Counted from the first letter of the stretch, positions 3,801-42,813 are shown. The stretch is DNA of 58,318 nucleotides from a virus (IMGVR_UViG_3300024346_000070:1-58318); one strand, 5' to 3'. The notes: generated from the letters alone by a model not told the origin. A program made the numbers and translations.

Positions 3801-3801
3801 C

Positions 3802-5485: not shown

Positions 5486-5509
5486 TTCTCTAAGTTCCTT
5501 ATAGGGGGG
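5486..5509 (+). promoter_or_regulatory. Phage RNAP promoter P1 (upstream of RNR)
   Basis: This contains TTCTCTAAGTTCCTTATAG followed by a run of G. The core TAAGTTCCTTATAG recurs exactly at four other intergenic sites. The TATAG-purine end matches the -4 to +6 part of the T7 promoter, so the predicted start is G5504. It is therefore most likely recognised by the phage T7-like RNAP. It lies 55 bases before the RNR start, making RNR and downstream tail genes part of a late or middle transcript. Confidence 0.8.
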
Positions 5510-13552: not shown

Positions 13553-14910
13553 TGAAACGTATAATTCAAAGGTATCAAGATGGTGGTGGGGTTAACCCTA
13601 TGGTGTCAACTGGTGTCCCTGAAGGTGGTTATGCTAAACAAGCCATAGCTAACTACTTGGCAGGTGAAACTTTAGGCGGTCCCTTATCTTACGTGGCTGG
13701 TGAATCCAATGTTCCTGATTATCATGCACTCGCAGATGAGCTTGGCACAAGTGTTATTGATGGCTATAGACCAGCGACTGCGGCATCGGCTGCGGCTGCA
13801 ACAGGGGATAATAACACTGCCCATGAAGAAATGATGGCGGGTGCTTCAAATAACTCAGTCGCAAATAACACTTATAGCACAGGCTCAGGTGGCGATACAA
13901 GTTCTTGGGTAACTGATCAAGAAACTTATGGTGCTCCTGGTGGACATTGGGGTGGCTCATCTGAATACGAAGCCAACTTGATCAACAACCCTTATATTGG
14001 GGATGAAGAATTTTGGGATACATATGAATCAGGTGAAGCATCTGGCAGTACCTTCTCAGGTGGTGGGCGTGATGGTGCTGGTAACTATGGTATAGCAGGT
14101 GATGTTGGCGCGGCAATTTATGATGCTGCTGGTAACTTACTTAACGGTTCACTTATTGGTCGTGGTTATACTGCACTCACTGGTAACAATTTACTAGATC
14201 CGTATGATGCTACAAAGTACCCTGATGGGGTTGTGCCAAACGAATATAATCCTGATGGAACTCCTAAAACTACAGGTTTAAATCTTACAGGACCAGTAAA
14301 CCCTAACCTCTCCTTAAAAAGAGGTGGTGGCTACAACACATCAGATACACACTCAACACACAACGATAGCATAGCGAAGGACGAGGCCAGTCGTGGAGCA
14401 TTTGGCAATGCAATTTGGAGCCCAGCGTTAGGTAGGCATTTAAATCCTACTCAAGTTGCAAACAGGAGAGCAAATGGTCTACCTGTTAACAATGGTGGTT
14501 TTATAGGTCCACTTGTTAAGGGATATAACAATGGTGGAGTTTCCTTGGCTAAGTCAGGTATTCGTGAAGAAGAAATACAAGAGCGTCAAAGGATGCAAGC
14601 GCGACTGCCTCAAGTGCAACAGAATCCACTATCAGATGTAGGATATAAACTTGCCATGGGAACTGTAGACAAAGGTATTGAATCTGCAGCATCTTCCTTA
14701 GCAGGCCAAGGTGCTGCTGGTGCTGCTGGTGCTGGTGCTGCTGGTTCAGGTATGATGGCAGCTCTTGGACCTATTGGTATTGGAATTGGTCTAGGTAAAC
14801 TGTTTGGTGTGTTTAACAAAGGTGGTAAAGTTACGTGTTCTTGTGGGAAACCTAACTGTAACTGTTCAAGTAAAATGAAATATTCCCCTTTAGGAGGAAG
14901 TTATGATTGA
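13552..14910 (+). CDS. Ejection-complex protein with GG-repeat motifs and Cys cluster
   Basis: This encodes 452 residues. Low-complexity Gly/Asn-rich sequence carries repeated Y(Q/N)xGG motifs (YQDGGGV, NNGGFIGPL, YNNGGVSL), as in marine phage virion proteins of this position. Residues ~385-425 are Ala/Gly-rich and hydrophobic (GAGAAGSGMMAALGPIGIGIGLGKLFGVF), plausibly membrane-inserting. It ends with a compact CSCGKPNCNC cluster that could bind metal. The gene overlaps the next by 8 bases. The next protein opens with more GG motifs, so the two may once have been one polypeptide. Function is inferred from neighbours. Confidence 0.6.
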   Translation: MKRIIQRYQDGGGVNPMVSTGVPEGGYAKQAIANYLAGETLGGPLSYVAGESNVPDYHALADELGTSVIDGYRPATAASAAAATGDNNTAHEEMMAGASNNSVANNTYSTGSGGDTSSWVTDQETYGAPGGHWGGSSEYEANLINNPYIGDEEFWDTYESGEASGSTFSGGGRDGAGNYGIAGDVGAAIYDAAGNLLNGSLIGRGYTALTGNNLLDPYDATKYPDGVVPNEYNPDGTPKTTGLNLTGPVNPNLSLKRGGGYNTSDTHSTHNDSIAKDEASRGAFGNAIWSPALGRHLNPTQVANRRANGLPVNNGGFIGPLVKGYNNGGVSLAKSGIREEEIQERQRMQARLPQVQQNPLSDVGYKLAMGTVDKGIESAASSLAGQGAAGAAGAGAAGSGMMAALGPIGIGIGLGKLFGVFNKGGKVTCSCGKPNCNCSSKMKYSPLGGSYD

Positions 14911-17900
14911 TAAAACAGACCCAACTAATAGGGACACTGTACCTGCTATACTTACTCCTGGAGAGTTTGTACTCAACAAGGAAGCAACTCAAATGTTTGG
15001 CCCTGTAGTTGAGCAAATGAATAACGCAGGCTTACAGCATCGTGCAATGAAAAACATGGGTGGTGGTATTCAAAACTACAATGATGGTGGTTTTGCGTGG
15101 CATAAAAACTACACACCTGAGGTTGAAGCTGCTATAGTTACAGCGGCAACTAAGTATGGTATCGATCCATTAACTCTTAAAACCATTGTCTACCTTGAGT
15201 CTAGGGGAAACCCTGAAGCTCAATCAAAACAGTCATCTGCTGGTGGCATCATGCAATTTTTAGATAAGACAGCTAAATCTTACAATCTTGAAAATCGTTT
15301 TGATGTTAATGAAAGCCTAGATGCAGGTGGTAAACTACTGACAGATAATGTTTCTCATCTAAGAAGTGTTCTTGATCGTGAACCAACACCTGCGGAAACA
15401 TACCTAGCACACCAACAAGGAGCAACAGGTGCTTTACGATTGTTAAAAGATCCATCTATTAATGTACTAGATGTAAAGAACATGACAAAAGATAAGGTTA
15501 TTAAGAACGGTGGTAATGTTGACATGACTGCTGGTGAGTTTGCAAACATGTGGATGCAAAAAGCCAACAATGCTTCTAAATTTATTGGGGGCGGTGACAC
15601 AAACACACCTGCACAACCCACAACCCAGACAGTATCCGTAGCCCCCATTACTTCCATTCCTCCTCAAATGAGAAATGATACAGTGTCATCTCCACGTCCT
15701 CAAACGAGACCTGAAGAACTAGTTCCTCAAATGGTAGCTAGTAACCAGGTAGAACCTTTAGCTATTGAACAGGCAGTGATGCAAGCTAGTGTACCACAGG
15801 TTCAAGCAGTACCCCCATCACCTTCAAGCTTTGGTGAAGCCTTCAAAGATGCACGAGCTGACATGGGAGCGGGAGGTATCTTTACCTTTCGTGGTAATGA
15901 TTATACTACTAATTATGCTGAAGAAGAAGATAAAAGGATGACTGCTAACATGGGTGGTGCTGTTTCTCTCAATATGGGAGGTTACCCACAAGAGTACTTA
16001 GATAATTATCGTAAAGCTATAATGGCTAATATGGGTCCGGAGTACTTGTCTAGAGTAGAGAGAATGGGAGGTGTAGACGCTGCTCGTGAACTACAAGCGC
16101 AAGTTCGTCCAGACTATACACCAGGTAATGTGGAGGAAGACTCTGCTTCATCTCAGCCTATGGCATATAACGATCCTGCTTTAAAAGTTAGATCAGATGG
16201 TATGATTGATTTAAGAGGCTCGGGAGGCTCAGATCGAAGGCTAGACAAAAACTTATATTTATCACAACCTGGAACTGGTATGACAACAGAAGAATCTATA
16301 GCTAAGCGTAAGAACCTTGCGTCTAATAGTTATGTACCGATGCCAAAAGTAAACAGTGATGAGTCATTACTTCAAGGCTCTTCTCAAAGCGTTGAGAATG
16401 CTGCTAGTTCCTACCCAAGTGACTACTCAATTATGGCTGCTGCTAACATGGCTGTGCCAAAGATTCCATTACCTCCTCCAGCACCCAGACCTACGATGGT
16501 CGGTGGTAATTTGTACTACTTAAATTCAGATGGGTCTGTAACTGATGGGAATGGTAATCCTGTTCAGGATCCTAGTATTGGTGCTGCTGTTCAGGATAAA
16601 CTCAACTACAGTGCAGAGGAATCTGCTGCTAATGCAGAAGCTTACAACGACTCTATGGCTGAGCAGGCGGTATTCAATGGTATTGCTCCACAGTCAGTAA
16701 ACCCAAGCTATGATTCAATGCGTCAACAGCAAGAGTCTAATGCTGCTGAGGCAGAAAGGATTAGGAAAGAAATTGCAGAGACTAATGCAAAACGTGAAGC
16801 CCTTAGAGTTGAGTTTAACAATAGGGAGCCAGCAGTTGTCCCACCATTAGACCCTAATGCACCTACATTTATGGGTGATGTTGTACCTTATCTTGGAAGG
16901 GCTGCTGGTAGTTTAGCAAGCAATGTTGGAGATACTGTCAATGAGTTTATGGCATCCCCTGCTTTACCTGTAGGATCAGTTGATGTTAATAAAGAGTATA
17001 GGGATATTAAGTCTATACTTGCAGGTGGTGTTGATAGAAACGGTGTTCCTTTAACTGACAATCAGATAAGAGCTTATAATACTCGTATTGGAGCTATAGA
17101 AAAAGAAAGGGACTACAATGATAGGATGGAACCATTTGGTGCGGGTCAGGTATTTGACACTGTTATTGAGAGTGGTAACCAACTAGCCGCAGATGTGAAC
17201 GATTACGTCACTGATAAGGTTGGGAATGTTGTTTCAGGGTTTAACCCCGAAGCTGGTGCAAGCGTATTAGATAGTAAACTAGGGTACGCACCACCACCAC
17301 GCCGTGAATTAACTGCTGATGAAATTGAATTTAATAGGCTAAGGGGACTGACTGGTGATACCACCCCTGAACCTGAAAACAATATCTCAAAAGTTGAAAA
17401 GGTAATTACCAACTTAGAAAAAAACCCTGAAGTATTACCAACAACCACTGTTTCTGAATCAGCTGCAGCCAAACAGGCAGCTGCAGCCAAACAGGCAGCC
17501 GCAGCCAAACAGGCAGCTGCCTCTATAAAGGTTGATCCAAAAGACCCTAAGGTATCCGGTGCCATGTCCACGCTTAAGAGTGTCTTCGGGGATCTGTTCG
17601 ATAGTAAAGAACTCATGAGAGCTGCTATCATGTACCTTGGTGGTCGTGCTACTGGTATGGATGGTAACCAAGCTCTTGCCTTTGCTGGTAAGAACTACAT
17701 TGCTAGGACTGATGCCAAGACAAGTTTCTATAATGAACAAGCTACATCTGGTAAGTGGACTAATGGGAGTCTTGCTAAGTATAGAAAGACTCGTGATCCT
17801 GCAGATCTGATTCCGGTTGGTGCTGTTTATAAAAGATCCTCTAAGGATGCTGAGGTATGGTATAATAAGAGGACAGGAAAAACTATCGTGTATGAGCAAT

Positions 17901-18649
17901 GGCAAGCAGGTAAGGATGGTAGCTATGTTACTGTTGAGGCTGGTAAGAACCCTATGGACCCTAATGCTAGGATTAATTACAGCATGGTTACTCAAGATGG
18001 TTCTAATGTGGTTGGCACAGATGCATATAATGCTAGGATTAATTCCAACAGAGAAAGCTACGCAGATGTTATAACTGCAGAGTTGCTGAAGTCTGAGATT
18101 CCTGCGGAGGATGGTAGAGCCAAGTCTAATTACCTAAAGGATATAAATTCTACCACAGATTCAAAAATCGTTTCAGATTTTGCTAAAAAATATGGAATTG
18201 ATCCAGACACTATGGCCCTAGTTCTTAGAAATGCTATGGTTAAGGCAACAGAAGATGTTAGGTCTACTCGTATTGATAAGGTTACCACTCTTGGTCCATA
18301 CCTTAAAGAGTCTTACATAACAGTCAACACTGGTGATAGGTCTAACTTTATGGTTGGTAATGGTAAGAAGGGTGACGAATACTCTGAAAAACTTGTCGGC
18401 ACTGAGGAATTTAGTAGTTGGTTGGCACAAACCCAACGAACATTAAGTCAATTGAAACCAGGTGCAAACCTAGATCAATATAACCCTGTTCAATTCAGTC
18501 AGAAACTTATGGAACAAGCTATTTATCAGGATTGGATAGGTCTAGATGAAGACATAAAAGCTAAGTACGCAACTGACGGAAGTCCTAATAGAAGTGGGTT
18601 TATGGAATACGTGACTGAAAACTTAGCGAAGGGTGCATTAAACTCTTAA
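14903..18649 (+). CDS. Virion-associated lytic transglycosylase, 1248 aa
   Basis: The N-terminus has DTVPAILTPGEFVLNKEAT, a motif common in phage virion proteins. A soluble lytic transglycosylase (SLT) domain covers about residues 70-170. The catalytic Glu is E99 in YLESRGNP, followed by SSAGGIMQF and later AYLAHQQG-like TYLAHQQGATGAL. It would cut peptidoglycan locally during DNA entry. The remaining ~1000 residues are Pro/Ala-rich linkers, an AAAKQAAAAKQ repeat (about residues 853-873, coded at 17460-17520) and a helical C-terminal half. The size and order match T7 gp15/gp16-type ejection proteins. No separate endolysin was recognised in the window. Confidence 0.8.
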   Translation: MIDKTDPTNRDTVPAILTPGEFVLNKEATQMFGPVVEQMNNAGLQHRAMKNMGGGIQNYNDGGFAWHKNYTPEVEAAIVTAATKYGIDPLTLKTIVYLESRGNPEAQSKQSSAGGIMQFLDKTAKSYNLENRFDVNESLDAGGKLLTDNVSHLRSVLDREPTPAETYLAHQQGATGALRLLKDPSINVLDVKNMTKDKVIKNGGNVDMTAGEFANMWMQKANNASKFIGGGDTNTPAQPTTQTVSVAPITSIPPQMRNDTVSSPRPQTRPEELVPQMVASNQVEPLAIEQAVMQASVPQVQAVPPSPSSFGEAFKDARADMGAGGIFTFRGNDYTTNYAEEEDKRMTANMGGAVSLNMGGYPQEYLDNYRKAIMANMGPEYLSRVERMGGVDAARELQAQVRPDYTPGNVEEDSASSQPMAYNDPALKVRSDGMIDLRGSGGSDRRLDKNLYLSQPGTGMTTEESIAKRKNLASNSYVPMPKVNSDESLLQGSSQSVENAASSYPSDYSIMAAANMAVPKIPLPPPAPRPTMVGGNLYYLNSDGSVTDGNGNPVQDPSIGAAVQDKLNYSAEESAANAEAYNDSMAEQAVFNGIAPQSVNPSYDSMRQQQESNAAEAERIRKEIAETNAKREALRVEFNNREPAVVPPLDPNAPTFMGDVVPYLGRAAGSLASNVGDTVNEFMASPALPVGSVDVNKEYRDIKSILAGGVDRNGVPLTDNQIRAYNTRIGAIEKERDYNDRMEPFGAGQVFDTVIESGNQLAADVNDYVTDKVGNVVSGFNPEAGASVLDSKLGYAPPPRRELTADEIEFNRLRGLTGDTTPEPENNISKVEKVITNLEKNPEVLPTTTVSESAAAKQAAAAKQAAAAKQAAASIKVDPKDPKVSGAMSTLKSVFGDLFDSKELMRAAIMYLGGRATGMDGNQALAFAGKNYIARTDAKTSFYNEQATSGKWTNGSLAKYRKTRDPADLIPVGAVYKRSSKDAEVWYNKRTGKTIVYEQWQAGKDGSYVTVEAGKNPMDPNARINYSMVTQDGSNVVGTDAYNARINSNRESYADVITAELLKSEIPAEDGRAKSNYLKDINSTTDSKIVSDFAKKYGIDPDTMALVLRNAMVKATEDVRSTRIDKVTTLGPYLKESYITVNTGDRSNFMVGNGKKGDEYSEKLVGTEEFSSWLAQTQRTLSQLKPGANLDQYNPVQFSQKLMEQAIYQDWIGLDEDIKAKYATDGSPNRSGFMEYVTENLAKGALNS

Positions 18650-18670: not shown

Positions 18671-21600
18671 ATGGGAACATTCAATGAGTTATTTGATTTC
18701 AAGCCCGATGCTTTAGTCGGTACTGATTATTTCTTCATAGATGGTGACACATTAAATAACCCCAATGGCCCTAACTATCGTCTTCGTGGGTTTGATACAG
18801 CAGAAGTATCTAAGATGCTTCATACTGGAGAGTTCAAAGAAGGTACTGCTGGTGGTCGAGAGACTGCCAGCATTATATCAAGGCTTGCTAATGAGCAGGG
18901 GTATAACAATGTTGTACCCCAGTTCAATGCTGATGGTTCTCTTGCTATGGATAATCATGGTCGTCAATTAATTGAGTTACACAATAAGAATGGTGAATCT
19001 TTCGGCACTGAAATGCTTAATTCAGGTGCTATGGACATGACAAGATACTCGACTGATGGCGACAGGATGAAAAAGTATCGGGCGGAAGCTGATAGGGATC
19101 TCCAAAGAAGGATGGGGACCTACGAACCATCTGATTTCGACAAGGCAGCTATAGAAATTAAGGATGCTGAAGAAGCTGAAGGTGCAAGATCTCTTGGGTT
19201 CAAGAAGACACTTGCAACTGAGGCGGATCGTGGGGCATACGTTAATTACTTCATGCAGGCTGAAGGTCTATCAAGATCAGATGCTATTGTAAGAATGAAT
19301 GATTACTTTAACATTACTCCCAGTATTGGATTTAGTGGGGTTGATAGGAACTACACATCTCTCAACCCTAAGATGGATTCTTTAAAGCAAGGTATGATTG
19401 GGGTAGGTGAGAGTGCCTTTGGTATGGCTAACCTTCTTGGATATGTATCTGATATCGAAGGGTTGGAAAACTGGGGTGAGCAAGGTGTTAAACGTCAGCG
19501 TGAAAAGCAAGAAAAGATTGGGTACCTGCTGAATAACTACAAAGAGATTGAAGGTGCTGGGGATGTCTTCGAGTACCTTGGGAACACAATGGCTATGTCT
19601 CTACCATACATGGCGACAATCGCTGCAGCAACAGTTGCAGCTCCTGTTACTTTTGGATTATCCTATACAGTACCTGTCAGTGTTTATGCTGGTCAGAACT
19701 GGAATGAGATGGAAGGACCTAACGAAAACAAGTCAGCTTCCATAGCCATTGGTGCCGCTGTTGCTATGACTGTTGCTGATAGGTTTGGTCTCCAAGCACT
19801 CAAGGGTGTTGGTGGATCCCCTACAGCTATGCTTCAACAACACGCAAGGAACTTAGCAGCTAGAGATGGCATTACTTTACCGACAGCTAGGAAGATGGTT
19901 AAGGAAAGTACGGATGAGATAATTGCACAGTTTTCAAAAGAGGTCCATGAGAAAGCTAAAGAGCAACTTAAATCTGCAGCCACTACTAAGAGGATTCTAA
20001 AAGATGTTGGTGTTGGTTCATTAGGTGAAGGGCTAACTGAGGTTGCTCAAGAAGCTATTGGGTACACAGCAGCAGTTGCGGGGTCTGATAAGCAATTTGA
20101 TTATCAAGAGTTGGAAGAACGATTGATCAATGCAGCTGTTGCTGGATCAGCTTTAGGTGCAGGGTTCTCTGTTCCTGGAACTGTTAAGGATCAGTTGGGA
20201 TGGATGGATGCAGCCGCAAGGTACGGCGTACCAATTGAGTCCACAGACGTTGAGAGATATGAATCTGAAGAGTTAAATTCCCCTAGCCCTGACTACTCAA
20301 CCAATGGTATGATGGATGGGGTTGAAACATTGTTGTCTAAAGCTGCAGTTAAAATAGCTAAGACTAAGCCTGCCCCCAAAGGTAAATCAAAAACTAAAGT
20401 TAAAACAAAGAAGCCTAGCTTACAGCCAAGGAAAGATGCTCATAGAGTATCTCAAGGTAGTAAGACATACATGGAACGTGCATCAGAAGCTGTGATGAAT
20501 GCGTCTAACTTATGGCAGAGCCACATCACTAACACCTTTACAAAAGACCTGTTAGATAAATCTCGTGCAGCTCGTGCTTTACATTCAATACTTGGTGGTG
20601 GTTTAACTAACCTACATAGTGGGTCAGGGTTTGAAGCTGCACAGCACCACTTGATGACAGCATACACAAATCAAGTATCACATCCAGCAACTTTCTGGAA
20701 GGCGTCTGGCTTACCAACCTTTGCAGGTGTTCATAGATCTTCTCAAAAAGCTAAGATGAGTGATCAGATTTATGCAGCATGGAAAGCAGCCCGTGATAAT
20801 GATGGCGTCTTTTATCCTGATAGGGTACCTCAGAACACTCCGAACAGGGGGTTGGTTATTAGCCTTGGGAATGAACTTATTGCATTGGGCACTAAATTAA
20901 GGAATGATCAGATTGCTTCTGACCCAGAACTTAACATGGGTCTTGTGGAGAGTTACCTCCAAAGGTACAGGGCTCTTGATAAGAGGGCTGTTCAGAATGA
21001 TCCTGAAGGATTTAAAAAAGCTTTAATGAGTATTGAATTTAAAAGTGGTAAGAAAATCTCAGCTGCTCAAGCACAAGAAATTGTAGATGATATAATAGAT
21101 AACCCACTTGTTGATTCACTTTCAGATGCAATGTCTTCTAACATAGGCTCATTGAACCCCTCGTCACATAAGAAAAGGACATTAGATCTTTCAGAACAAG
21201 AAGGGTTCGATGCTTTCTACGAGAGGGATGTGTTTGCAAACGTAGCTAAGGCTAGTAAGTCAGCTGCAAGATTTGTAACTCAGATGAAATATGTTGGTAA
21301 GGATGGGGAGGTAATCTCTCACTTCTTAGATCAAATGGAAGCTGAGGGTGTCCCACGGGAAGAGGTAAACAAGGTAGCCTCTAGGGTGTTTGATGGTTTA
21401 GAAGCAGTGTCAGGTAACTACAACAGGCCGACTACTCAAGCTGGTAAAAAGCTTATGAGGTTCCAGAAGAATGTAATGTTCTGGATGACACTCTCCGCCT
21501 TACCACTGGCTACATTCTCCTCACTCCCTGAGTTGGCAATGTCACAAGGTGCTCTAACCAAGGATCAAATCTTTGGGGAAAACAATAGTATTAAAGCTAT

Positions 21601-22744
21601 TGCGACTGAGTTTTCAGCAGCATTCATACCACTACTTCGTAAGGTTGAAGATGGGTCTGATGATGATGTCCTCAAGCCGGATACATATAGTAAGGGTCAG
21701 AAGATACTTAATGAGGTGATGGGATCATCTTGGGAAGTTGGAGCTGCTACTACTGTGGGTGTTAAGGAAGCCTCTGAGAACCGTAAGGAAGTCATGGAGT
21801 TCTTCTTCAAGGCTATTGGTCTTACACAGTTTACTGATTACACTCGTGCTGTTCGTGCATCCTTTGCATATGACTTCATGTCCTACAACGCTAAGATAAT
21901 AAACAATGGTAAGATGGGTAGGCTTAGGCGTGGTGATGAGTACAAGACCCGTCAGGAACAAGAGGCGGAGCAAAAGCTTAGGAGCATTGGTATCCCCATA
22001 GAAGAATTTGTGGGTATGCATATTGATTTTGAGGCAGAAGGGCTTAAGTATTTCGAAGGGCCTAATGCAGTCTACTCTTTAGACCAGTGGAACACTATTA
22101 TAAAAGAAGGTACGTACAACTTTATCAATCAGACAGTCCCACTTCCAGGTGCTATGAATCGTCCTTTGATCTATCAGGATCCTAGGTTTGCTCTGTTCAC
22201 ACAGTTCCAAGGTTTCATATCTACCTTCACAGCTAATCAGATACCTCGTATGTGGAATGATTATATTAAACGTGGTAGTCCATCGATGAAGTTTAACACC
22301 TTTGCAATAATGTCTACAATGATTGCTCTTGGGTTCTTTTCACAGGCCATAAAAGACTCTATTAAGTTTGACGATGATGATGATGAAGGAACTCTAGGTA
22401 ACCCTTATTTAAACAAGCCTGAGTATATTCGTCGTGGTATCATGGCATCTGGCCTTTTAGGTACAGGTGAAAGGGTCGTCGATATCTTCGCTCCTATCTA
22501 TGGTCAAAGGTCTGACGGGGGAGTTGGATGGGTGTACGCCCAAGCCACAGGTGAGAGCCCCTCTCTAGGTTACTTAGCTAGGGGAGGTACTTCTCTTTCC
22601 AAACTAGCACAAGGTGATGTGGAAGGATCACTGTATAATGCCATGCGAATGGCACCTGGTATTGCACCTTTCACAGAGGGTAACAAAAGCTTAGCTAGTT
22701 TATTAACTGGTGGTGGATGGAACTACAAAGACAATGAGGAGTAA
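18671..22744 (+). CDS. Ejection protein with N-terminal staphylococcal-nuclease domain
   Basis: This encodes 1357 residues. Residues ~20-150 read as a complete SNase (thermonuclease) domain: D24-G-D26-T, then R37LRGFD42T43AE45, then GR98QLIEL and MLNSGAMDMTRY, ending with a helix rich in K/R. Spacing R37-D42-E45 equals that of R35-D40-E43 in the staphylococcal enzyme, and R98 fits its R87. Metal and catalytic residues therefore look intact. Residues ~305-375 hold two hydrophobic stretches (MAMSLPYMATIAAATVAA, IAIGAAVAMTVA). The rest is helical, with no recognised domain. As a virion protein next to the transglycosylase it is probably ejected; it may degrade host nucleic acid or process entering DNA. 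Target and activity are unknown. Confidence 0.75.
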   Translation: MGTFNELFDFKPDALVGTDYFFIDGDTLNNPNGPNYRLRGFDTAEVSKMLHTGEFKEGTAGGRETASIISRLANEQGYNNVVPQFNADGSLAMDNHGRQLIELHNKNGESFGTEMLNSGAMDMTRYSTDGDRMKKYRAEADRDLQRRMGTYEPSDFDKAAIEIKDAEEAEGARSLGFKKTLATEADRGAYVNYFMQAEGLSRSDAIVRMNDYFNITPSIGFSGVDRNYTSLNPKMDSLKQGMIGVGESAFGMANLLGYVSDIEGLENWGEQGVKRQREKQEKIGYLLNNYKEIEGAGDVFEYLGNTMAMSLPYMATIAAATVAAPVTFGLSYTVPVSVYAGQNWNEMEGPNENKSASIAIGAAVAMTVADRFGLQALKGVGGSPTAMLQQHARNLAARDGITLPTARKMVKESTDEIIAQFSKEVHEKAKEQLKSAATTKRILKDVGVGSLGEGLTEVAQEAIGYTAAVAGSDKQFDYQELEERLINAAVAGSALGAGFSVPGTVKDQLGWMDAAARYGVPIESTDVERYESEELNSPSPDYSTNGMMDGVETLLSKAAVKIAKTKPAPKGKSKTKVKTKKPSLQPRKDAHRVSQGSKTYMERASEAVMNASNLWQSHITNTFTKDLLDKSRAARALHSILGGGLTNLHSGSGFEAAQHHLMTAYTNQVSHPATFWKASGLPTFAGVHRSSQKAKMSDQIYAAWKAARDNDGVFYPDRVPQNTPNRGLVISLGNELIALGTKLRNDQIASDPELNMGLVESYLQRYRALDKRAVQNDPEGFKKALMSIEFKSGKKISAAQAQEIVDDIIDNPLVDSLSDAMSSNIGSLNPSSHKKRTLDLSEQEGFDAFYERDVFANVAKASKSAARFVTQMKYVGKDGEVISHFLDQMEAEGVPREEVNKVASRVFDGLEAVSGNYNRPTTQAGKKLMRFQKNVMFWMTLSALPLATFSSLPELAMSQGALTKDQIFGENNSIKAIATEFSAAFIPLLRKVEDGSDDDVLKPDTYSKGQKILNEVMGSSWEVGAATTVGVKEASENRKEVMEFFFKAIGLTQFTDYTRAVRASFAYDFMSYNAKIINNGKMGRLRRGDEYKTRQEQEAEQKLRSIGIPIEEFVGMHIDFEAEGLKYFEGPNAVYSLDQWNTIIKEGTYNFINQTVPLPGAMNRPLIYQDPRFALFTQFQGFISTFTANQIPRMWNDYIKRGSPSMKFNTFAIMSTMIALGFFSQAIKDSIKFDDDDDEGTLGNPYLNKPEYIRRGIMASGLLGTGERVVDIFAPIYGQRSDGGVGWVYAQATGESPSLGYLARGGTSLSKLAQGDVEGSLYNAMRMAPGIAPFTEGNKSLASLLTGGGWNYKDNEE

Positions 22745-22747
22745 CTT

Positions 22748-25700
22748 ATGAGTAAGTTTAATGTTAATAATGTATCTGGTTCTGTTAACGCAGTCGATGA
22801 TATAGATTTAGGTCTCATCCAAAACGAAGGAGTTGTAGCCCCAGAAGGGGCTGCTACCTCTACTGGTTCATCTCTTGCAGATCAATGGAGGGATTCTCCA
22901 GAGACAGTAGAGGATGTTTCAGGAGCTGTTGGTTCTTTTGTGGATGATGCATTTGCTCCAGTAGATCCAGATGAAATGGAAAGGCTTGACCGACAAAGTT
23001 TAACACCAATTAATGAGCGTGTTAGAAATCCCCAACCTGCCTTTGTAGCATCATCTGCACTAGGTAATACATCTCAGAATGCACAGTATGCAATAAGCCC
23101 AGACGGGGGTCTTGTTGCTAGGGCTGAGAAGCTTAGGACTATGGTAGACGAAGGGTATGGGGTATACGTTGGTGGTCAAGGTAACCCTGCCTACCCAATG
23201 TCCCTTGGGCCAGACGCACAGAGAGGCCCTGCATTAGCAGATTCTTATGCAGAAGCAAACGATGGGACTTTCTTTGCAGCCGCAAGTAGATCTGATGCTA
23301 TACAGTATGATCCTCTTAATGAAAAAGAAAGAGCATTAGACCCAATGTTTACAATGCTGGGTAGCGTTGTTACTGAAAACATGATGATGAATTACTTTCA
23401 GTCTCTTAAAGAAGGTGACTACTACAACCCAGAATCTGATGGGATGGATGTCGCACAGTCTTCTTTGTTAAGGGGTGGTCAAACACTTCCCGAAAGGAAC
23501 GCTGAGATTGTAATGAGTCAGTCTAAAAACAATGGTCAGATTGGACACCAGATAAACTCAGAGTATCAAACACGCAGGGCTGGTCCTCGTACAGAACAAC
23601 TTGTTAATCAGATGGTGCAAGAGATGGTTTCTCAGGGTGTGCCAGAAGATGTCGCACTTCAACAGGCACAGTCTTCACCTCAAGTTAATGAGATGCAAGC
23701 ACCTACAAGATTAACTACCAAAGAGGCTGAGACTTTAGGTGCTGCATTTAAATCACTATGGGCTAGGGCTAATCCAAACTTGGTAGATGTATATAAGGAT
23801 TCAACCCAGCAAAGGGTTTACCGATTAACCCCAGAAGGTGAGGCATTAATTGAGAAGGGTAAGGCAGAACGTGACATAGCCTTTCCACCCCTTAACGTCA
23901 AACCAAATAAGTCTCCATCTACTGAAGGTCTTAGTGGAACTGGTGTAGGTACTGTTAAGAGAGGTAAATCTGGGGGTGCTCCTGGACAGCGTATGCGTAA
24001 TATTATGAATGAGGCTAAGGGTAATCTAGGAACCATAGGTCATTTTGTAAGACCTCGACGTATGAAACTCCTAATCTCAACTATAGCACTGCCACTTGTA
24101 ACAGGTAACCACAACTCTTGGCAAGCTGAGATAAATGGTATGGGTGAAACCAAGATGAAGCAGTACAGGGCTGAGCAAGCTTCCCAAGATAGGAGGTTAG
24201 AAAAACCTGGTGCTGAAAGGGAAAAGCCATACATCCCAACGGATGAGATTAAAAAGCAGATGAATAAGATTGCACAGGAAGTTCAATCCTTAGCACAAGA
24301 GCGTAAAGGTGAAAACTTTTTAACATTCTTTTTCCAAGGGTATCAGGGCAGACTTGCAGCACAACAAACTAATTTTAATCTCACAAGCTCTAAGACTGTT
24401 CGCGCTGTAACAAGTGCGGTTGCACCTGCTACTTTTAAGATTGGAAGTCGGAAGGATAAAAACTATAGGCAAATGCAGGCCATGCTTTTAGTTCTTAAAC
24501 AGAAGGATACTAATGGTAATGTTATTGAGGAGGCTGCTGAAGATTTCTTACCTGTTGTTAGAGATGCTAAGCTCAGACTTAATGAGCCAATCCTATACGC
24601 ACATGGTAAGAGATTAAAAGAAGCGTTAGATATGTCAATGACAGACGATCAATATGAAGCTGTTGCTGAAGCTATTGCTCAAGGTGTTGCATTAGACTCT
24701 CCTAATTTCCCAAAGTTTTCTGGACTTAACTTAGATCCTACCAATGATATGGACGCCGCTATCATTAAGAACATTAATAGCCAAAAGCAAGATGGTTTAG
24801 TTTACATGGATGCCTTGATAGACTTTGCTGATTACCTAGACTTTAAAAACAACAGGGGTGACCCTGATGCTAAGCAATCTTTTAGTACACACCTTAATGC
24901 GTACTTAGATGGTAAGACACACGGGACAGCTACCAATGCTGTGCTACTAGGTGATAAGAAAATGTCTTACAAGACTGGTGTACTGAGGACTCAGCGACTT
25001 AAGTTTCTTGATGATGGTGACATCCGAGATGAGCTTATACGATTAGCAGATGCAAGTATTAGTACACCTTGGGAGAATGTATCTGATGATATTCTTGTAG
25101 ATATTAATGCTGTTGCCCGTAAGGTTTTTCAAGACAGGGAATTAGCTAAGTTGACGATTATGACTTTTGGGTATGGTAAAGAGATTCTAAGTTTTGGTTC
25201 TGCTATTGATGAAACTATTGAGTTGATATACCAAGACACTGAAACAGACTCTGGGTTTGTCAACAGTTTAGATAGGTTGACGAAGGAAGTGACGAGGGAT
25301 CAGCTTGCTGATATCTTATTGCTAAAGTATGCAGCATCTCTGGAGAATATCTTATCAGAGGATGCGCTTATAGCTAGGGAAGTTACCCGATCAGCTGCAT
25401 CTTTGTTTTCCATTATGGATATGCCCTTTATGATACGAGGAGCTACTGGTATGGAGATGTACATAGGTGGGATGGTTTCCTCTGACTATGAATCTTCAGA
25501 TAAAACTAAGTTTAAAATGGCTGATAGGTTTGGCAATGTCACTGAACAAGTGATACCACACTACACCAACACCCCAACAGCATCTGCTGCTAAGTTGAGG
25601 GGGACTGTCTCAATACCTGGAGACCATGCGTTTAGTGGGGTTGTTGTTCAACCTGTTCAATCTATTGATGCTGCTACAATGGCATTAACATTTTCTGGTA

Positions 25701-26320
25701 AATCATTTGATAGATTATCTAAAGCATCTAATGGTAAGCCTTATGCATACCCTATCTACGATGCTGTTAAGGTAGATGTTAATGGCTATGATGTTATGTT
25801 TGAAGAGATTAATCAGAACTGGATGGATGCTACGTTTGGATGGAGTTACTTTAAAGAGATTTCAAAATCTTTAGATGAAGCCACTGAAGTCTTTGAGAAG
25901 AATATCAAGAGTCGTCCTGCAGATGAAATACTATCAGCACAGCAGGCAGAGTATATGCAATTCTATCTAGCAACTGTTATTTCCTCTAAGGGTAATGAGT
26001 TAATGTTACCTTTGATGAAGAAGATTAAACAGCTAACTGGCAGAGCAGACTCTGATTATCTTTTTGATACTGTTAATATGTTTGCAAGAGAGATGCGGAA
26101 AGTAGGATACGATCCTTTCAATCCACCATCAAACCCTAACGTCAAACAGCTTAGAACTTTCTATGCTCTTATGAAAAGAGAGTTGAAAACTAAATCAAGA
26201 TTGTCTGATCTAGTTGCTCGTACAGAGGCCAGCAAGAAAGATCTTAGGAAAGAACTTCTTAGGACTGGTTTTAAAACTGAGAGTGGTAAGAGGATTGCTG
26301 CTAATTTCTACGGACACTAA
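22748..26320 (+). CDS. Putative virion RNA polymerase (T7/N4-type single subunit)
   Basis: This encodes 1190 residues, the last gene of the ejection-protein cluster. The C-terminal two-thirds carries the ordered motifs of single-subunit RNA polymerases. G534-R535 sits in FFFQGYQGRL (T7 DWRGR). Motif A is YLDGKTHG with D721 (T7 FDGSCSG). Motif B is R797-ELA-K801-LTI-M805-TFG-Y809-G, identical in spacing to T7 R627/K631/M635/Y639 and to N4 virion RNAP. Motif C is YPIYD1005, after a QSIDAATM segment that parallels T7 HSQDGSHL. The N-terminal ~450 residues are unlike T7 and may direct packaging or ejection. In N4 a virion RNAP enters with the genome and transcribes early genes from hairpin promoters. 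Assignment as polymerase is strong by motif; packaging in the virion is inferred from operon position. Confidence 0.8.
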   Translation: MSKFNVNNVSGSVNAVDDIDLGLIQNEGVVAPEGAATSTGSSLADQWRDSPETVEDVSGAVGSFVDDAFAPVDPDEMERLDRQSLTPINERVRNPQPAFVASSALGNTSQNAQYAISPDGGLVARAEKLRTMVDEGYGVYVGGQGNPAYPMSLGPDAQRGPALADSYAEANDGTFFAAASRSDAIQYDPLNEKERALDPMFTMLGSVVTENMMMNYFQSLKEGDYYNPESDGMDVAQSSLLRGGQTLPERNAEIVMSQSKNNGQIGHQINSEYQTRRAGPRTEQLVNQMVQEMVSQGVPEDVALQQAQSSPQVNEMQAPTRLTTKEAETLGAAFKSLWARANPNLVDVYKDSTQQRVYRLTPEGEALIEKGKAERDIAFPPLNVKPNKSPSTEGLSGTGVGTVKRGKSGGAPGQRMRNIMNEAKGNLGTIGHFVRPRRMKLLISTIALPLVTGNHNSWQAEINGMGETKMKQYRAEQASQDRRLEKPGAEREKPYIPTDEIKKQMNKIAQEVQSLAQERKGENFLTFFFQGYQGRLAAQQTNFNLTSSKTVRAVTSAVAPATFKIGSRKDKNYRQMQAMLLVLKQKDTNGNVIEEAAEDFLPVVRDAKLRLNEPILYAHGKRLKEALDMSMTDDQYEAVAEAIAQGVALDSPNFPKFSGLNLDPTNDMDAAIIKNINSQKQDGLVYMDALIDFADYLDFKNNRGDPDAKQSFSTHLNAYLDGKTHGTATNAVLLGDKKMSYKTGVLRTQRLKFLDDGDIRDELIRLADASISTPWENVSDDILVDINAVARKVFQDRELAKLTIMTFGYGKEILSFGSAIDETIELIYQDTETDSGFVNSLDRLTKEVTRDQLADILLLKYAASLENILSEDALIAREVTRSAASLFSIMDMPFMIRGATGMEMYIGGMVSSDYESSDKTKFKMADRFGNVTEQVIPHYTNTPTASAAKLRGTVSIPGDHAFSGVVVQPVQSIDAATMALTFSGKSFDRLSKASNGKPYAYPIYDAVKVDVNGYDVMFEEINQNWMDATFGWSYFKEISKSLDEATEVFEKNIKSRPADEILSAQQAEYMQFYLATVISSKGNELMLPLMKKIKQLTGRADSDYLFDTVNMFAREMRKVGYDPFNPPSNPNVKQLRTFYALMKRELKTKSRLSDLVARTEASKKDLRKELLRTGFKTESGKRIAANFYGH

Positions 26321-26327
26321 AAAAAAT

Positions 26328-26375
26328 AAGGCCCCCAAGAGAACCATAAAGGTTTTCCTGGGGGCCTTTTTATTT
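26328..26375. terminator. Bidirectional terminator between late and early arms
   Basis: A long hairpin: arm AAGGCCCCCA (26328-26337) pairs with TGGGGGCCTT, an inner stem GAGAACC pairs with GGTTTTC, and the loop is ATAAA. It is followed by TTTTTATTTTT on plus and preceded by AAAAAATAA, giving a T tract on minus too. It separates the converging polymerase genes at 26320 and 26376. Confidence 0.9.
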
Positions 26376-26666
26376 TTATTTAAGCATACCTTGTTTTGCA
26401 AGAAGCTCACGATACTCCTTCATCTGCTCATGCTTTCGTTGTTTTGCTAACGTAGTGTCTATAATACCACCCTCTAGATCCTCTGCAATACCAATGTCTA
26501 TGACACGCGGCATGAGATCTTTTGTATACGCTAACTCTAAATCTAGAGCTGTCTTAGTCAATCGATTGGAGTTCCAATCAGAGATGAACTCATCGTCATC
26601 TACTTGAACACCTCGTAGTGCTAAATGATTATATGATTTACGCGAAGAAGTAGTCACTGTTTTCAA
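26376..26666 (-). CDS. Small protein downstream of RNAP
   Basis: This encodes 96 residues and overlaps the 3' end of the RNAP gene by 29 bases, suggesting translational coupling. It is charged and helical, with an acidic first half (VQVDDDEFISDWNSN), a middle ALDLELAYTKDLMPRVID, and a basic C-terminus (LAKQRKHEQMKEYRELLAKQ) that could bind nucleic acid or form a coiled coil. No family is recognised. As the last gene of the minus arm, right before the terminator, it may modulate the polymerase; that is only suggested by linkage. Confidence 0.65.
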   Translation of the reverse strand: MKTVTTSSRKSYNHLALRGVQVDDDEFISDWNSNRLTKTALDLELAYTKDLMPRVIDIGIAEDLEGGIIDTTLAKQRKHEQMKEYRELLAKQGMLK

Positions 26667-28932
26667 TCTCCTTTATATCTAAGCTGCCCAATGTGGGTTG
26701 TTCCACATCATCCTCAGCATCTGTAATGAAGTTACGTATAACCTCAAAGTAATTATCGTAGTCGTACATACGTATGAATATTTGTTTGGTTAGGTCGAGT
26801 AGTTTATCCACATCACTGGCATGAGTACTGAAGCTATCATGCACAGCTGCAAAGGAACCATCCCACTCAGAGATAACCAAAGCCATATGACTAGCATCCA
26901 TAGAGTGAATGTAGTTAGGCGACATGCCACAGATAAAACCTCTCCTGTCTGGCATACGTGTAGGCACAAGGGCTACGTGTGTAACTTGACCTGTCTTGTT
27001 ACCATACCCTTTGATACGTCCTCTAGCTTTCCTGTCTTGCATGATCCATTTCTCATAGATCACATGGAACCCTGAAGGTGTACTCCACTCAATCCGATCT
27101 TCACCCTTACCATGTTTAAGACTTGTTGTAAACTCTTTCAGTTTAATCACAGTATCATTAAGTTCATATAGATCTTCATCTGTCTTGAAGTTTTTCTTCA
27201 TTAGGGTGTCACGTATCTTAGACAGGTTCCTATACTCAGTGTTAGCTTCGTAGCCATCTGAGTCTACTTTCACATGTGTACCCAATTGGTACATCGCTAG
27301 GTTCTGTAAGTAACTCATAGTAGATAGTGGACCTGGGCACACCTTATCAATTGCTTTGATCAGCAGCTTAGATAGTTTAGTGCAATCATCTTGTGTGATG
27401 TCATAATCTGTGTGGTAGTCTTCCGATTTACAATCAAAGAACATGTTCTCAGCTATCTTCTTAGACCCTGCCGAGTATGCCCTAGTCATAGAGCCACGTT
27501 TGGATATACCTTTACGTATGCTCTTCATGGGCATGTTGTTTAGGATACTATTGAGTCGATCATCTTTACAAAGATTGATCATCTCCTTAGCTGTTTGAAC
27601 ATAGAAATCTTTCTGTATCTCTGAAGGTATTAGACCAACCAATCCACCAGTCTGTGAGTCCTTAGAGATTGCTCCAAGGTGTTGCCAACCATTGTTACTA
27701 CCATCGATGGGGATAGGTAGGCTAGTCATGTGAATACGATTGTCTCTATAAGCACAGTCAAAATCATACCACTCAACACAAGCCGCGAGAAAAGATACTT
27801 TCTTCTCAGCCTGATCAGAGAACTGTGAGTTTTTACCAGCATGTACGATTTCATCCATGTATTCGTTTGTCCACATGATACGATCTTCTAGAGTCATTTT
27901 ATCAACAGATATATTATCTAGTCCTTCTTCTTCAAGGTGACCTTTATAATCAGATGTACACCACTCAGGTATCTCATCTATATTGTAGGACATGTTGAAG
28001 ACAGACGCTGTGTGTATAGCCAACCACTGTAACCCACTTTCAGTCATGGGCTTTGAGTGCTGGAACTTAAACAATCCCCTGGCTAAATCTGATCCTTGAA
28101 AGTTCATAAAGCTTTCGCAGTAGTAGAACCTGCCGCGATAATCTACATCTAGGTATTGATAGAACTCCTCTAGTTCTGATAGCTTACGTGCCTTCTCTGA
28201 TATAAATGCCCACTCAACCATCTTGCTCCTACGTTTAAGCTCTTTAGCATCGTTGTCTTTAATAGGATCAGTAGATATGAACAGGTCTTTGTTCTCAACC
28301 ATCGCATTGTAAACTGGCTTGTTTATCTTCCAAGCAGTCTGCTGTAGTTTGTTAAGAGCTTGTACCCAAGGGGCATATGGATCTATCGCATCACCATCTA
28401 CTCTACCTTTGATTACTGGTCTGTGAACACCATTGATCTGCTGTATCATACCAGCTATATCTTTGGGCCGTAAGGTACTGGTAGATGCTAAGGGAAAGCT
28501 CCCACCTTTCTCAGGTATCACACCTAACTCGTACCACCTATGGGACGCAGACACCACATGACAGCTGTTACGGGTCTTAGCATAGGACAAGTCGATAAAC
28601 CCTAGGTTGTATAAGGCTTCTACGAACAGGTCTCCTATGGACACTACAGAGCCCCAGGGAAGGGGCTCTCTATCTAGTTCTTTACCCACACTCTGACCTA
28701 TTTTACTAGATGCATTAGTAAGTGTGGAGGTACCAGCTGGGCTTGAACTAGTATCTTTAGTGAATTGCATTTGAAGTATGGAGATACTTTTCATAACGTA
28801 ACTTTCCATACGCTCACTGTAATTTCCAGACAACCTCATCAAGAGCCCAGCAAGATGGGGCCTTCGACGTGCAGGACTTACACCATCTACCCTCTTGACA
28901 AGGTAATCAACTATCTCTTGGAGTGCTGACAT
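26638..28932 (-). CDS. T7-like DNA-dependent RNA polymerase
   Basis: This encodes 764 residues (T7 has 883). Motifs: DYRG-R268, motif A PIDGSNNGWQHLGAI with D410, motif B K478-RGS-M-TRA-Y486, and motif C SPNYIHSMDASHMAL...VHDSFS with D699. All catalytic residues are present. The N-terminal promoter-binding part is shorter than in T7. Motif B has YS where T7 has YG. Five promoter-like sites with core TAAGTTCCTTATAG are its likely targets. Unlike in T7, where RNAP is the first gene, here it is near the far end of the minus arm, so something else must transcribe it first. Confidence 0.95.
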   Translation of the reverse strand: MSALQEIVDYLVKRVDGVSPARRRPHLAGLLMRLSGNYSERMESYVMKSISILQMQFTKDTSSSPAGTSTLTNASSKIGQSVGKELDREPLPWGSVVSIGDLFVEALYNLGFIDLSYAKTRNSCHVVSASHRWYELGVIPEKGGSFPLASTSTLRPKDIAGMIQQINGVHRPVIKGRVDGDAIDPYAPWVQALNKLQQTAWKINKPVYNAMVENKDLFISTDPIKDNDAKELKRRSKMVEWAFISEKARKLSELEEFYQYLDVDYRGRFYYCESFMNFQGSDLARGLFKFQHSKPMTESGLQWLAIHTASVFNMSYNIDEIPEWCTSDYKGHLEEEGLDNISVDKMTLEDRIMWTNEYMDEIVHAGKNSQFSDQAEKKVSFLAACVEWYDFDCAYRDNRIHMTSLPIPIDGSNNGWQHLGAISKDSQTGGLVGLIPSEIQKDFYVQTAKEMINLCKDDRLNSILNNMPMKSIRKGISKRGSMTRAYSAGSKKIAENMFFDCKSEDYHTDYDITQDDCTKLSKLLIKAIDKVCPGPLSTMSYLQNLAMYQLGTHVKVDSDGYEANTEYRNLSKIRDTLMKKNFKTDEDLYELNDTVIKLKEFTTSLKHGKGEDRIEWSTPSGFHVIYEKWIMQDRKARGRIKGYGNKTGQVTHVALVPTRMPDRRGFICGMSPNYIHSMDASHMALVISEWDGSFAAVHDSFSTHASDVDKLLDLTKQIFIRMYDYDNYFEVIRNFITDAEDDVEQPTLGSLDIKEIENSDYFFA

Positions 28933-35612: not shown

Positions 35613-35635
35613 TTTCTTTAAGTTCCTTATAGAGA
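35613..35635 (+). promoter_or_regulatory. Phage RNAP promoter P2 (upstream of TerS-like gene)
   Basis: Reads TTCTTTAAGTTCCTTATAG then AGA. The 14-base core TAAGTTCCTTATAG is identical to the other four copies. The predicted start is G35632. It faces the isolated plus-strand gene at 35705, against the surrounding minus-strand operon. A weak AGAGA/TCTCT stem followed by CTTTT lies just downstream (35631-35655). Confidence 0.78.
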
Positions 35636-35656: not shown

Positions 35657-35679
35657 AATCCGACCCCTGTGGTCGGATT
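35657..35679 (-). promoter_or_regulatory. Covarying hairpin H4, candidate virion-RNAP promoter
   Basis: A perfect 9-bp stem (plus-strand arm AATCCGACC) with loop CCTGT, read ACAGG on minus. On the minus strand it is followed by TAAAAGAGAGATT. It lies 54 bases upstream of the first gene of the replication operon (35603). It is one of four such hairpins; see the entries at 39599, 40204 and 42234. It has no T tract on either side, so it is not a normal terminator. The promoter role is inferred from N4 biology. Confidence 0.55.
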
Positions 35680-38030: not shown

Positions 38031-38342
38031 TTAGTCTGCTTCTCTCGCAGCTTGTATCATCTTCTCTTTGATGTGTCCCCATTGTTTATCTGCGTCAAGT
38101 TCATCCTCGAAATCTGTTGTACATTCTACGTAGTCTGTGTCGCTCATACGTTTCCAATCAACGTTATTGATGTCAAGGTCTACTATTTCTGCTTTTATTA
38201 TTTCCCCAGAGTTTAATTCAACATACGCAGTCCCCCATTTATCCCATGAGTTTACAACATCATCTATTGATTTACCATCTGGTAACTCTAGAGTCATTTC
38301 TGCGTAACAGTTGTAGACTCCTGAGTATATAATGCTAGTCAT
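38031..38342 (-). CDS. Small protein sharing a module with 41461-41739
   Basis: This encodes 103 residues. The first part is a beta-rich domain (YNCYAEMTLELPDGKSIDD, KAEIVDLDINNVDW). The C-terminal ~30 residues (TTDFEDELDADKQWGHIKEK) are clearly homologous to TTDFENELDPGEQWEHIKEE in the protein at 41461-41739. The DNA of that part is also alike (about 9 mismatches in 85 bases by eye). Module sharing among early genes suggests recent recombination. No known family. Confidence 0.7.
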   Translation of the reverse strand: MTSIIYSGVYNCYAEMTLELPDGKSIDDVVNSWDKWGTAYVELNSGEIIKAEIVDLDINNVDWKRMSDTDYVECTTDFEDELDADKQWGHIKEKMIQAAREAD

Positions 38343-39598: not shown

Positions 39599-39621
39599 AA
39601 TCCGACCCCTGTGGTCGGATT
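39599..39621 (-). promoter_or_regulatory. Covarying hairpin H3, candidate virion-RNAP promoter
   Basis: The stem arm AATCCGACC and loop CCTGT on plus are identical to H4. On minus the loop reads ACAGG and the next bases are TAAAAAGAGTAAC. It lies between the SSB-like gene and the long non-coding leader, so it would head the transcript running through 38969. No T tract follows the hairpin on minus. Confidence 0.55.
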
Positions 39622-39634: not shown

Positions 39635-40159
39635 TTAGAACATTGCCTCTAGGTCTTCGTCTTTGACACCTGCAACAGTTGGCGACACACTGTCAAGAAT
39701 ATCAAAGTCTACACCATCACTGCCGTTGTACTCGACAAGATCAGTTACTTGTACAGCTGTGAGGGAGTTGAAGACTGATTCGTTATTGTCACCGTAAGGA
39801 GCTTGCCATACGATAACATTAACTGTTGAACCATTACCAATAGTTTTAGCGTCCATTGGTTGTTTGTCATTACCAACCACACGAGGCTTACCATTGTCAC
39901 TGCCATCTTTCCTGAGAGCCCGACGACGAAGTGTCAGTGTTTCGACACCTTCGTTGTTTTCTCTTACAGGCAAATGGTTATCTTTCCACAGTTTGAGAGT
40001 CGCTTCATCTTTAGCACGTAGCTGAATCTCAAACTGCAATGGTGTAGTGAAAGGGCGACCATTGACTGTGCCTTTACCAATCTGGGGTGTTTCCAGTTTA
40101 GGGTAAAAGCACAAAGCGTCTTTGATCATGAAGTTACGGGCTTTTTCAAGTTTAGTCAT
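39635..40159 (-). CDS. Single-stranded DNA-binding protein (probable)
   Basis: This encodes 174 residues with an AAAGGAAC ribosome site. It has a beta-rich OB-like body (TPLQFEIQLRAKDEATLKLW, TVNVIVWQAPYGDN, TAVQVTDLVEY) and an acidic tail ending EDLEAMF, the aromatic-terminated acidic C-terminus typical of phage SSBs such as T7 gp2.5. It would coat ssDNA and contact polymerase and helicase through the tail. It is flanked on both sides by covarying hairpins (H3, H2), as if transcribed as its own unit at high level. Confidence 0.7.
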   Translation of the reverse strand: MTKLEKARNFMIKDALCFYPKLETPQIGKGTVNGRPFTTPLQFEIQLRAKDEATLKLWKDNHLPVRENNEGVETLTLRRRALRKDGSDNGKPRVVGNDKQPMDAKTIGNGSTVNVIVWQAPYGDNNESVFNSLTAVQVTDLVEYNGSDGVDFDILDSVSPTVAGVKDEDLEAMF

Positions 40160-40203: not shown

Positions 40204-40226
40204 AATCGATCCCCTGTGGGTCGATT
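40204..40226 (-). promoter_or_regulatory. Covarying hairpin H2, candidate virion-RNAP promoter
   Basis: A 9-bp stem with a different sequence from H3/H4 (plus arm AATCGATCC, one T-G wobble at pair 7) but the same length and loop CCTGT. On minus it is followed by TAAAAAGAGAGATTTCC. It lies 45 bases before the SSB-like gene. On plus, GAGAG-GAAAT-CTCTC-TTTTT at 40183-40202 is a separate small terminator-like hairpin. Confidence 0.55.
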
Positions 40227-41462: not shown

Positions 41463-41739
41463 AAGACACAAGCGGAAGCCACTCGTCCACTTCTTTTATG
41501 AAGATGTAAGTCAGGAGGTGATCTATCTCGTCTTGTGTCACGTAGTCGTTTATACCCAAACCATCTGGCAGGGTTAGGACTTTGTCCACAGCTTGTATCA
41601 TCTCCTCTTTGATGTGTTCCCATTGTTCACCTGGGTCAAGCTCATTCTCGAAATCTGTTGTCCATTCTACGGAGTCACAGAGTTTGTCAAATTTATGCTC
41701 GAAGAAGTCTATGTCATTTCCTGCAATTGAGTTAGTCAT
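41461..41739 (-). CDS. Small acidic protein sharing a module with 38031-38342
   Basis: This encodes 92 residues from ATG 41739, directly after the repeated leader; longer upstream frames only translate that leader. The middle (VEWTTDFENELDPGEQWEHI) matches the C-terminus of the 38031-38342 product. The ends differ: DIDFFEHKFDKLCDS before, YVTQDEIDHLLTYIFIKEV after. So a common ~30-residue module is joined to different partners. It may bind a shared target. No known family. Confidence 0.65.
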   Translation of the reverse strand: MTNSIAGNDIDFFEHKFDKLCDSVEWTTDFENELDPGEQWEHIKEEMIQAVDKVLTLPDGLGINDYVTQDEIDHLLTYIFIKEVDEWLPLVS

Positions 41740-42233: not shown

Positions 42234-42256
42234 GATCTGGCCCCTGTGGTCAGATC
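42234..42256 (-). promoter_or_regulatory. Covarying hairpin H1, candidate virion-RNAP promoter
   Basis: A 9-bp stem (plus arm GATCTGGCC, one G-T wobble at pair 7) and loop CCTGT. It differs from H2-H4 at pairs 1, 5, 6 and 7 but keeps pairing and the loop. On minus it is followed by TAAGAAGAAGTAT. It lies 108 bases before the first early gene. Confidence 0.55.
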
Positions 42257-42287
42257 AGAGACTATCCGAACCAATCATGTAGAGGTC

Positions 42288-42394
42288 TGAGAGATACTGA
42301 GAGATACTGAGAGATACTGAGAGAGACTGAGAGATACTGTACATTGGTCTAGACTGAGAGATACTGAGAGAGACTGAGAGATACTGAGAGATAG
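42288..42394. repeat. Nine decamer repeats TGAGAGATAC
   Basis: Five tandem units (42288-42337), a 17-base spacer containing TGTACATTGG, then four more (42355-42394). Variants are TGAGAGAGAC (units 4 and 7) and TGAGAGATAG (unit 9). A 10-bp period is close to one helical turn, so a protein could bind each unit on the same face, as with iterons or terminase sites. Confidence 0.85.
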
Positions 42395-42456: not shown

Positions 42457-42480
42457 TCTCCCTATAAGGAACTTAGAGAA
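42457..42480 (-). promoter_or_regulatory. Phage RNAP promoter P3 (toward early arm)
   Basis: On the minus strand it reads TTCTCTAAGTTCCTTATAG then GGAGA, the copy closest to T7 (TATAGGGAGA). The predicted start is the base complementary to 42462. It would let the T7-like RNAP take over transcription of the whole minus arm after the first phase. It is the only minus-oriented copy seen. Confidence 0.82.
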
Positions 42481-42792: not shown

Positions 42793-42813
42793 TTTCTAAG
42801 TTCCTTATAGGGA
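42793..42813 (+). promoter_or_regulatory. Phage RNAP promoter P4 (packaging genes)
   Basis: TTTCTAAGTTCCTTATAG then GGA, after an AT-rich tract (ATATATAAATATAT). The start is predicted at G42810, 19 bases before the terminase ATG, so the leader is very short (ACATAGAGGACACACA contains the ribosome site GAGG). Confidence 0.82.

Follow-up and report, generated by a model that had tools for sequence, protein, structure and literature searches.

The gene at 22748-26320 (plus strand) raises the question of whether a phage with an ordinary T7-like RNA polymerase (RNAP) also brings a second single-subunit RNAP into the cell with its virion. Virion single-subunit RNAPs (vRNAPs) have so far been treated as a hallmark of the Schitoviridae, and the hairpin-reading strategy has been tied to the family of phage N4. 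A preliminary description, made from the sequence alone, had read the catalytic residues of T7/N4 polymerases in the 1190-residue product and proposed a compact virion enzyme. Here, the whole stretch of DNA that was analysed, 58,318 nucleotides in length, is called the window.

The open reading frame, its 1190 residues and all the motif residues named in that description held as stated: R535 of the GR motif (24350-24352), D721 of motif A, YLDGKTHG (24908-24910), R797-K801-M805-Y809-G810 of motif B (25136-25177), and D1005 of motif C, PIYDAV (25760-25762), all on the plus strand. Relatives were gathered from IMG/VR in two ways, as genes convergent on a T7-like RNAP gene and, independently, as relatives of the candidate itself. 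There are many of them, in uncultured marine viruses infecting bacteria, and all complete ones comprise about 1160-1270 residues. In an alignment of 25 sequences, with relatives 18-47% identical to the window protein, 34 of the 1190 positions are invariant, including R535, D721, G722, K801, M805, Y809, G810, and D1005; the chance that the five catalytic residues would all be invariant is about 1e-8. In a deep clade R797 is shifted by one residue, as R and K are separated there by one more position. The exact R-x3-K-x3-M-x3-YG spacing claimed at the outset thus holds for the window protein, but its R-x3-K part is not family-wide. The identification of the residues as those of T7/N4 enzymes held as well, given the five invariant residues and their alignment with N4 counterparts. 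PHROG 414 (RNA polymerase) was matched independently by 13 of the 25 family members, with a best E of 9e-8. The open reading frame, the conservation, the structural model and the profile matches show computationally that the product is a member of the single-subunit RNAP family with a conserved active site, from which catalytic activity is inferred.

Simpler searches gave little. No match was found among 50,697 phage records by tblastn, either with the window polymerase or with four divergent relatives (L062, L072, L093, and L141), and Pfam returned solely a sub-threshold match to DUF6074. Neither single-sequence phmmer nor profile hmmsearch against the PDB sequences found an RNAP, so detecting the kinship required profile-profile and structure comparison. 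The polymerase-type gene of one further relative (L161:10001-13624) gave a short tblastn match, covering 11% of the query, to the uncultured phage cr126_1; a 128-residue stretch (residues 822-949, 37%) is common to it and a cr126_1 protein annotated as DUF1768. Some relatives, such as this one, might contain an inserted domain.

The AlphaFold2 model of the 1190-residue polymerase has a pLDDT of 76.6 and a pTM of 0.74, with low confidence for residues 1-116, and the region from about 115 to 1190 is the counterpart of the N4 mini-vRNAP. Foldseek matched the model to T7 RNAP, mitochondrial RNAPs, and N4 mini-vRNAP in the PDB (E 2e-15 to 1e-12). With VIA-align, the model superposed on T7 RNAP with a Z-score of 21.8 (540 residues, r.m.s.d. 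4.9), and its residues 61-1190 on residues 71-1063 of the N4 chain in 3c46 with a Z-score of 20.3 (775 residues, r.m.s.d. 8.1). The model thus predicts a right-hand single-subunit RNAP fold. The structure prediction which the preliminary description had proposed as a check hence yielded a polymerase fold matching both T7 RNAP and N4 mini-vRNAP.

Comparison by hhalign shows that the compact family is related at the profile level to the N4 virion RNAP. The match to the Schitoviridae vRNAPs has an E of 3.8e-10 for the full set and 1.6e-14 for the divergent members, the latter spanning 563 columns through motif C with every catalytic motif in register, whereas ten column-shuffled and two reversed control profiles gave E-values of 0.39 or worse. 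R535, D721, R797, K801, Y809, and D1005 correspond to R424, D559, R666, K670, Y678, and D951 of N4 (mini-vRNAP numbering). With T7 RNAP and the Autographiviridae RNAPs (PHROG 414), the compact polymerase shares the fold and the catalytic motifs, but it is late-operon encoded and cysteine-free, and the profiles resemble each other only weakly (E 0.012 in the comparison with the T7-like RNAPs from the same phages).

The likeness to the N4 vRNAP (gp50, PHROG 2206) comprises not only the single-subunit RNAP fold with active-site residues in register but also the position of the gene as the last of the ejection-protein operon (gp52-gp51-gp50 in N4), the near-absence of cysteine, the early-region hairpins, and the second, T7-like RNAP of the phage. 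The sizes differ: the N4 enzyme has about 3500 residues and surveyed vRNAPs have 2,842-3,820 (PMC10654107), against 1190 here, in agreement with the earlier estimate of about a third. The compact polymerase matches only the mini-vRNAP core of N4 (residues 998-2103), the minimal active domain (PMC4496689), and is without the membrane-binding N-terminal domain (NTD) and the autoinhibitory C-terminal domain (CTD) of the N4 enzyme (PMC12633501). On the basis of the sequence and model comparison, we regard it as a natural “mini-vRNAP”, the counterpart of that minimal active domain.

The phage itself is a more distant matter. The window is 58.3 kb long with undetermined ends, whereas Schitoviridae genomes are linear, 59-80 kb, with defined ends and terminal repeats. 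The portal (45328-47484) belongs to the same PHROG as the N4 portal (1216), but the PHROG of the capsid protein differs from that of N4 (1328 versus 1357), an observation pointing to a mosaic virion module. Since the portal PHROG is common with N4 but neither the capsid PHROG nor the split RNAPII is, we treat the phage as a partial virion-module relative and not as a member of the Schitoviridae.

The polymerase is the last gene of the late ejection-protein operon. It follows a 1248-residue ejection protein with a lytic transglycosylase domain (14903-18649, plus strand; Pfam SLT, E 1e-13) and a 1357-residue ejection protein with an SNase-like N-terminus (18671-22744, plus strand; PHROG 6958, virion structural protein, E 2e-16), and its start codon lies 3 bp past the stop codon of the latter. 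The SNase-like character is a reading of the sequence, as the N-terminus has no Pfam match. Neither the polymerase nor the two ejection neighbours contain a single cysteine. Cysteine is likewise lacking in all 41 window-type polymerases, whereas the T7-like RNAPs of the same phages average 14.7 per 1000 residues; 21 of 23 segments of Schitoviridae vRNAPs have none either. We take this absence, by inference, as selection on proteins threaded through the oxidising periplasm. Packaging in the virion, which the preliminary description had deduced from gene position, gains support from the cysteine absence and the early-region hairpins; it is still an inference, drawn from the operon, the exclusion of cysteine, and the kinship with the N4 vRNAP, without proteomics. 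The absence of cysteine may also serve as a general marker for finding ejected proteins.

The ordinary T7-like RNAP described earlier at 26638-28932 was confirmed as a 764-residue protein (Pfam RNA_pol, E 8e-54; PHROG 414, E 9e-98). Its gene, the final large one in the early/replication operon, is on the minus strand and therefore converges with the compact polymerase gene. A stem-loop with T-runs between the two operons (26325-26376), recognised in the sequence and by the terminator scan on the minus strand, is likely a two-way terminator, as inferred from its sequence. The convergent arrangement was found in 151 of 153 loci, representing every testable relative; the remaining two are cut by contig ends within 500 nt. 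The 153 are loci and not distinct contigs, and only those fetched with the candidate can test the pairing, not those fetched with the RNAP. The preliminary description did not know the combination of a compact vRNAP with a T7-type RNAP as described; the pairing is not new in itself, as N4 combines its vRNAP with the T7-like RNAPII (PMC4496689). The partner differs, being a single full-length chain here (best match PHROG 414) and a gp15/gp16 heterodimer in N4 and the Schitoviridae; a 2015 review found the heterodimeric RNAPII in all vRNAP species except two with a split gp16-like sequence (PMC4496689).

The motif TCTAAGTTCCTTATAGGGA has five matches in the window, against 0.03 expected, and ends in TATAGGGA, as the T7 promoter does. 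We assign it by inference to the T7-like RNAP. The putative promoters on the plus strand precede TerL (42795-42813) and the ribonucleotide reductase gene (5489-5507) or lie at 44603-44621 and, as a weaker match overlapping the upstream region of the gene starting at 35603, at 35617-35635; the one on the minus strand (42459-42477) is directed into the early operon. Separately, a tandem AGAGATACTG array with a 10-bp period (42286-42393), which could possibly mark a genome end or an origin, lies in the 600 bp of non-coding DNA that separate the early operon from TerL.

Which elements might the compact polymerase read? Four stem-loops on the minus strand of the early region share the core CCAC[A/G]GGGG, and an A-rich 3' flank is conserved among them. 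Hairpin 1 (42234-42256) precedes the first early gene, hairpin 2 (40204-40226) lies 44 nt before the start codon of a gp2.5-like ssDNA-binding protein (SSB) gene, hairpin 3 is at 39599-39621, and hairpin 4 (35657-35679) lies 53 nt before the following start codon. The SSB itself is encoded at 39635-40159 on the minus strand (PHROG 112, E 1e-9). The combined pattern of core and flank occurs four times in the window, each time within the early region and oriented in the early direction, against none expected. Four relatives (G001-G004) also have four hairpins each in one orientation, the first element of G004 being located in L236, and in most copies the stem lies 44-45 nt from the start codon of the SSB gene and 53 nt from that of an 81-residue gene. 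When the 21 elements were aligned, 94% of the cells paired, and five of nine stem pairs showed changes on both sides. Covariation was 0.344, compared with 0.126 in shuffles (above all 500) and at most 0.122 when slid; the elements are related to each other, and the result is not a probability. The stems of 8-9 pairs with a loop near 5 nt differ from the N4 hairpins, whose stems reach at most 7 bp and whose loops have 3 nt (PMC4496689). Of the 11 imperfect pairs in the aligned set, seven would be G.T if formed on the template strand, and none would be on the coding strand. This agrees, albeit weakly in view of the small number, with a DNA hairpin on the template strand like that of N4 (PMC4496689). 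A recount on a larger set was spoiled by 6-nt-loop variants, and we used the aligned set alone.

More distant relatives (G005-G007) carry other, unrelated hairpin families, characterised by ATTG[CT]CCGC-A[TC][TC]C-GCGG in G005, the loop ACAAG in G006, and AAATTT[AG][TC]-TA[AT]C in G007; two of the three are small, with three and two copies. Each of the seven relatives with an early region that was read thus has a hairpin family, and the SSB gene lies downstream of a hairpin in all eight genomes, at 45 nt in G005, 239 nt in G006, and 137 nt in G007. The early region shows no enrichment of sigma-70-like sites, with 18 counted where 23.8 were expected, and Rfam gave no convincing match for the hairpins. 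A reading of the hairpins as terminators was rejected, since on the early strand they lack a following T-run and were not flagged by the terminator scan. The covarying hairpins are shown by computation, while their use as promoters and the compact polymerase as their reader remain inferences. Within two small genes of the same region, two 88-nt copies with 90% identity (38048-38135 and 41589-41676) likely represent a duplicated early gene segment.

Other virion polymerases have been proposed or described outside the Schitoviridae. The putative vRNAP of StenR_269 is cysteine-free like the compact polymerase, but it was proposed only from its size, helix content and lack of cysteine, without motif evidence and with low-confidence AlphaFold models (PMC10747016). 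The virion RNAPs of P23-45 (PMC10770324) and of phiKZ/AR9 are likewise carried for early genes but are kin of multisubunit cellular RNAPs and do not have the T7/N4 fold. The positional counterpart in a cultured relative is the unannotated gp33 of Roseobacter phage CRP-7 (MK613349), which is of the same size and closes the ejection operon there. Its gene converges with that of a T7-like RNAP, the only transcription polymerase named in the CRP-7 paper (PMC6918029). All eight gp33-type proteins are cysteine-free. The invariant D693, Y774-G775, and H978-D979 of gp33 stand in an order comparable to that of the compact polymerase, but R takes the place of its catalytic K. No BLAST similarity to the compact family was found, and the profile E is only 0.07-0.09. 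As structure prediction gave no confident fold (pLDDT 39.5), homology is undecided; gp33 may have diverged beyond detection, or it may have lost the function, and both are possible. The early region of CRP-7 yielded no hairpin family. The repeat TATAGTCC..TATTAAAAGG occurs there at 2017-2044, 7138-7165, and 14755-14782 (L005); it is possibly a T7-like RNAP promoter.

We consider it likely that the compact enzyme is a virion RNAP which is injected and reads the early genes from hairpin promoters before the T7-like RNAP takes over for the late genes, although packaging, activity, and promoter use are all inferred. In this scheme, the compact polymerase would be made late, enter the virion together with the two ejection proteins whose genes directly precede its own, and then be threaded through the tail and an envelope channel into the cell. 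There, as the N4 vRNAP does, it would start transcription of the early operon at promoters that fold into hairpins in the incoming DNA. The early operon would yield the SSB and, at its end, the T7-like RNAP, which would then transcribe the late operon from TCTAAGTTCCTTATAGGGA-type promoters. The proposed order of events would resemble that of N4 until the late genes, which N4 leaves to the host RNAP (PMC4496689). Several caveats apply. The hairpins could act in RNA rather than in DNA, and it is not ruled out that the T7-like RNAP reads them, even if this enzyme has a candidate motif of its own. The low copy numbers of two families in G005-G007, the larger distances to the SSB start in G006 and G007, and the CRP-7 counterpart without a confident fold or a hairpin family in its phage also count against the scheme.

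A referee may ask whether the product is simply a second intracellular single-subunit RNAP, for instance for late genes, that is never packaged. T7-like phages normally use such enzymes within the cell, and there is no virion measurement. Against this stand the place of the gene as the last in the structural operon, directly after an ejection protein, the absence of cysteine, shared with the ejection neighbour but not with the T7-like RNAP that the phage also encodes, and the virion RNAPs as the closest profile relatives, which together leave this explanation highly improbable. We give equally little credence to a former polymerase that is now a purely structural ejection protein like T7 gp16, with the host RNAP reading the early genes. 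It could draw on CRP-7, where a cysteine-free protein without recognisable similarity and with R for the catalytic K occupies the same place in a phage without a hairpin family. In the window lineage, however, no catalytic residue varies even among relatives with as little as 18% identity, seven of seven relatives read have hairpin families, and there is no enrichment of sigma-70-like sites for a host enzyme.

A third objection accepts the polymerase but holds that the hairpins are RNA elements, such as processing sites, 5' UTR regulators, or weak terminators. Several hairpins indeed lie 44-53 nt before start codons, and covariation alone cannot separate RNA from DNA. This alternative is less remote than the other two but still unlikely: the early strand has neither T-runs after the hairpins nor flagged terminators, hairpin 1 precedes the first early gene and has nothing left to terminate, Rfam has no match, and the G.T pairs fall on the template strand (7 of 11, none on the coding strand), although the last point is weak. 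An injected, hairpin-reading compact virion RNAP remains our preferred explanation.

Judged by the open-access literature that we searched, the novelty appears to lie in the compact size, in the single-chain partner, and in the position outside the Schitoviridae, although an earlier description is not excluded. A survey of vRNAPs in IMG/VR dropped homologues under 2,500 residues (PMC10654107), a cut-off that would have removed the compact family. The 1190-residue version shows how much of the enzyme may be enough for injection and function as a polymerase, and comparison with it makes the role of the NTD and CTD of the N4 enzyme testable. Several polymerase-hairpin pairs are available for studying promoter coevolution, and hairpin-dependent one-chain RNAPs of ordinary size could be useful reagents. 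In a bolder reading, which in our judgement is as likely to fail as to hold, a widespread marine lineage outside the Schitoviridae starts infection with an injected natural mini-vRNAP that needs neither NTD nor CTD, and whose hairpin specificity has changed several times alongside its own sequence. If that were true, the giant N4 form could be an elaboration of a compact injected polymerase.
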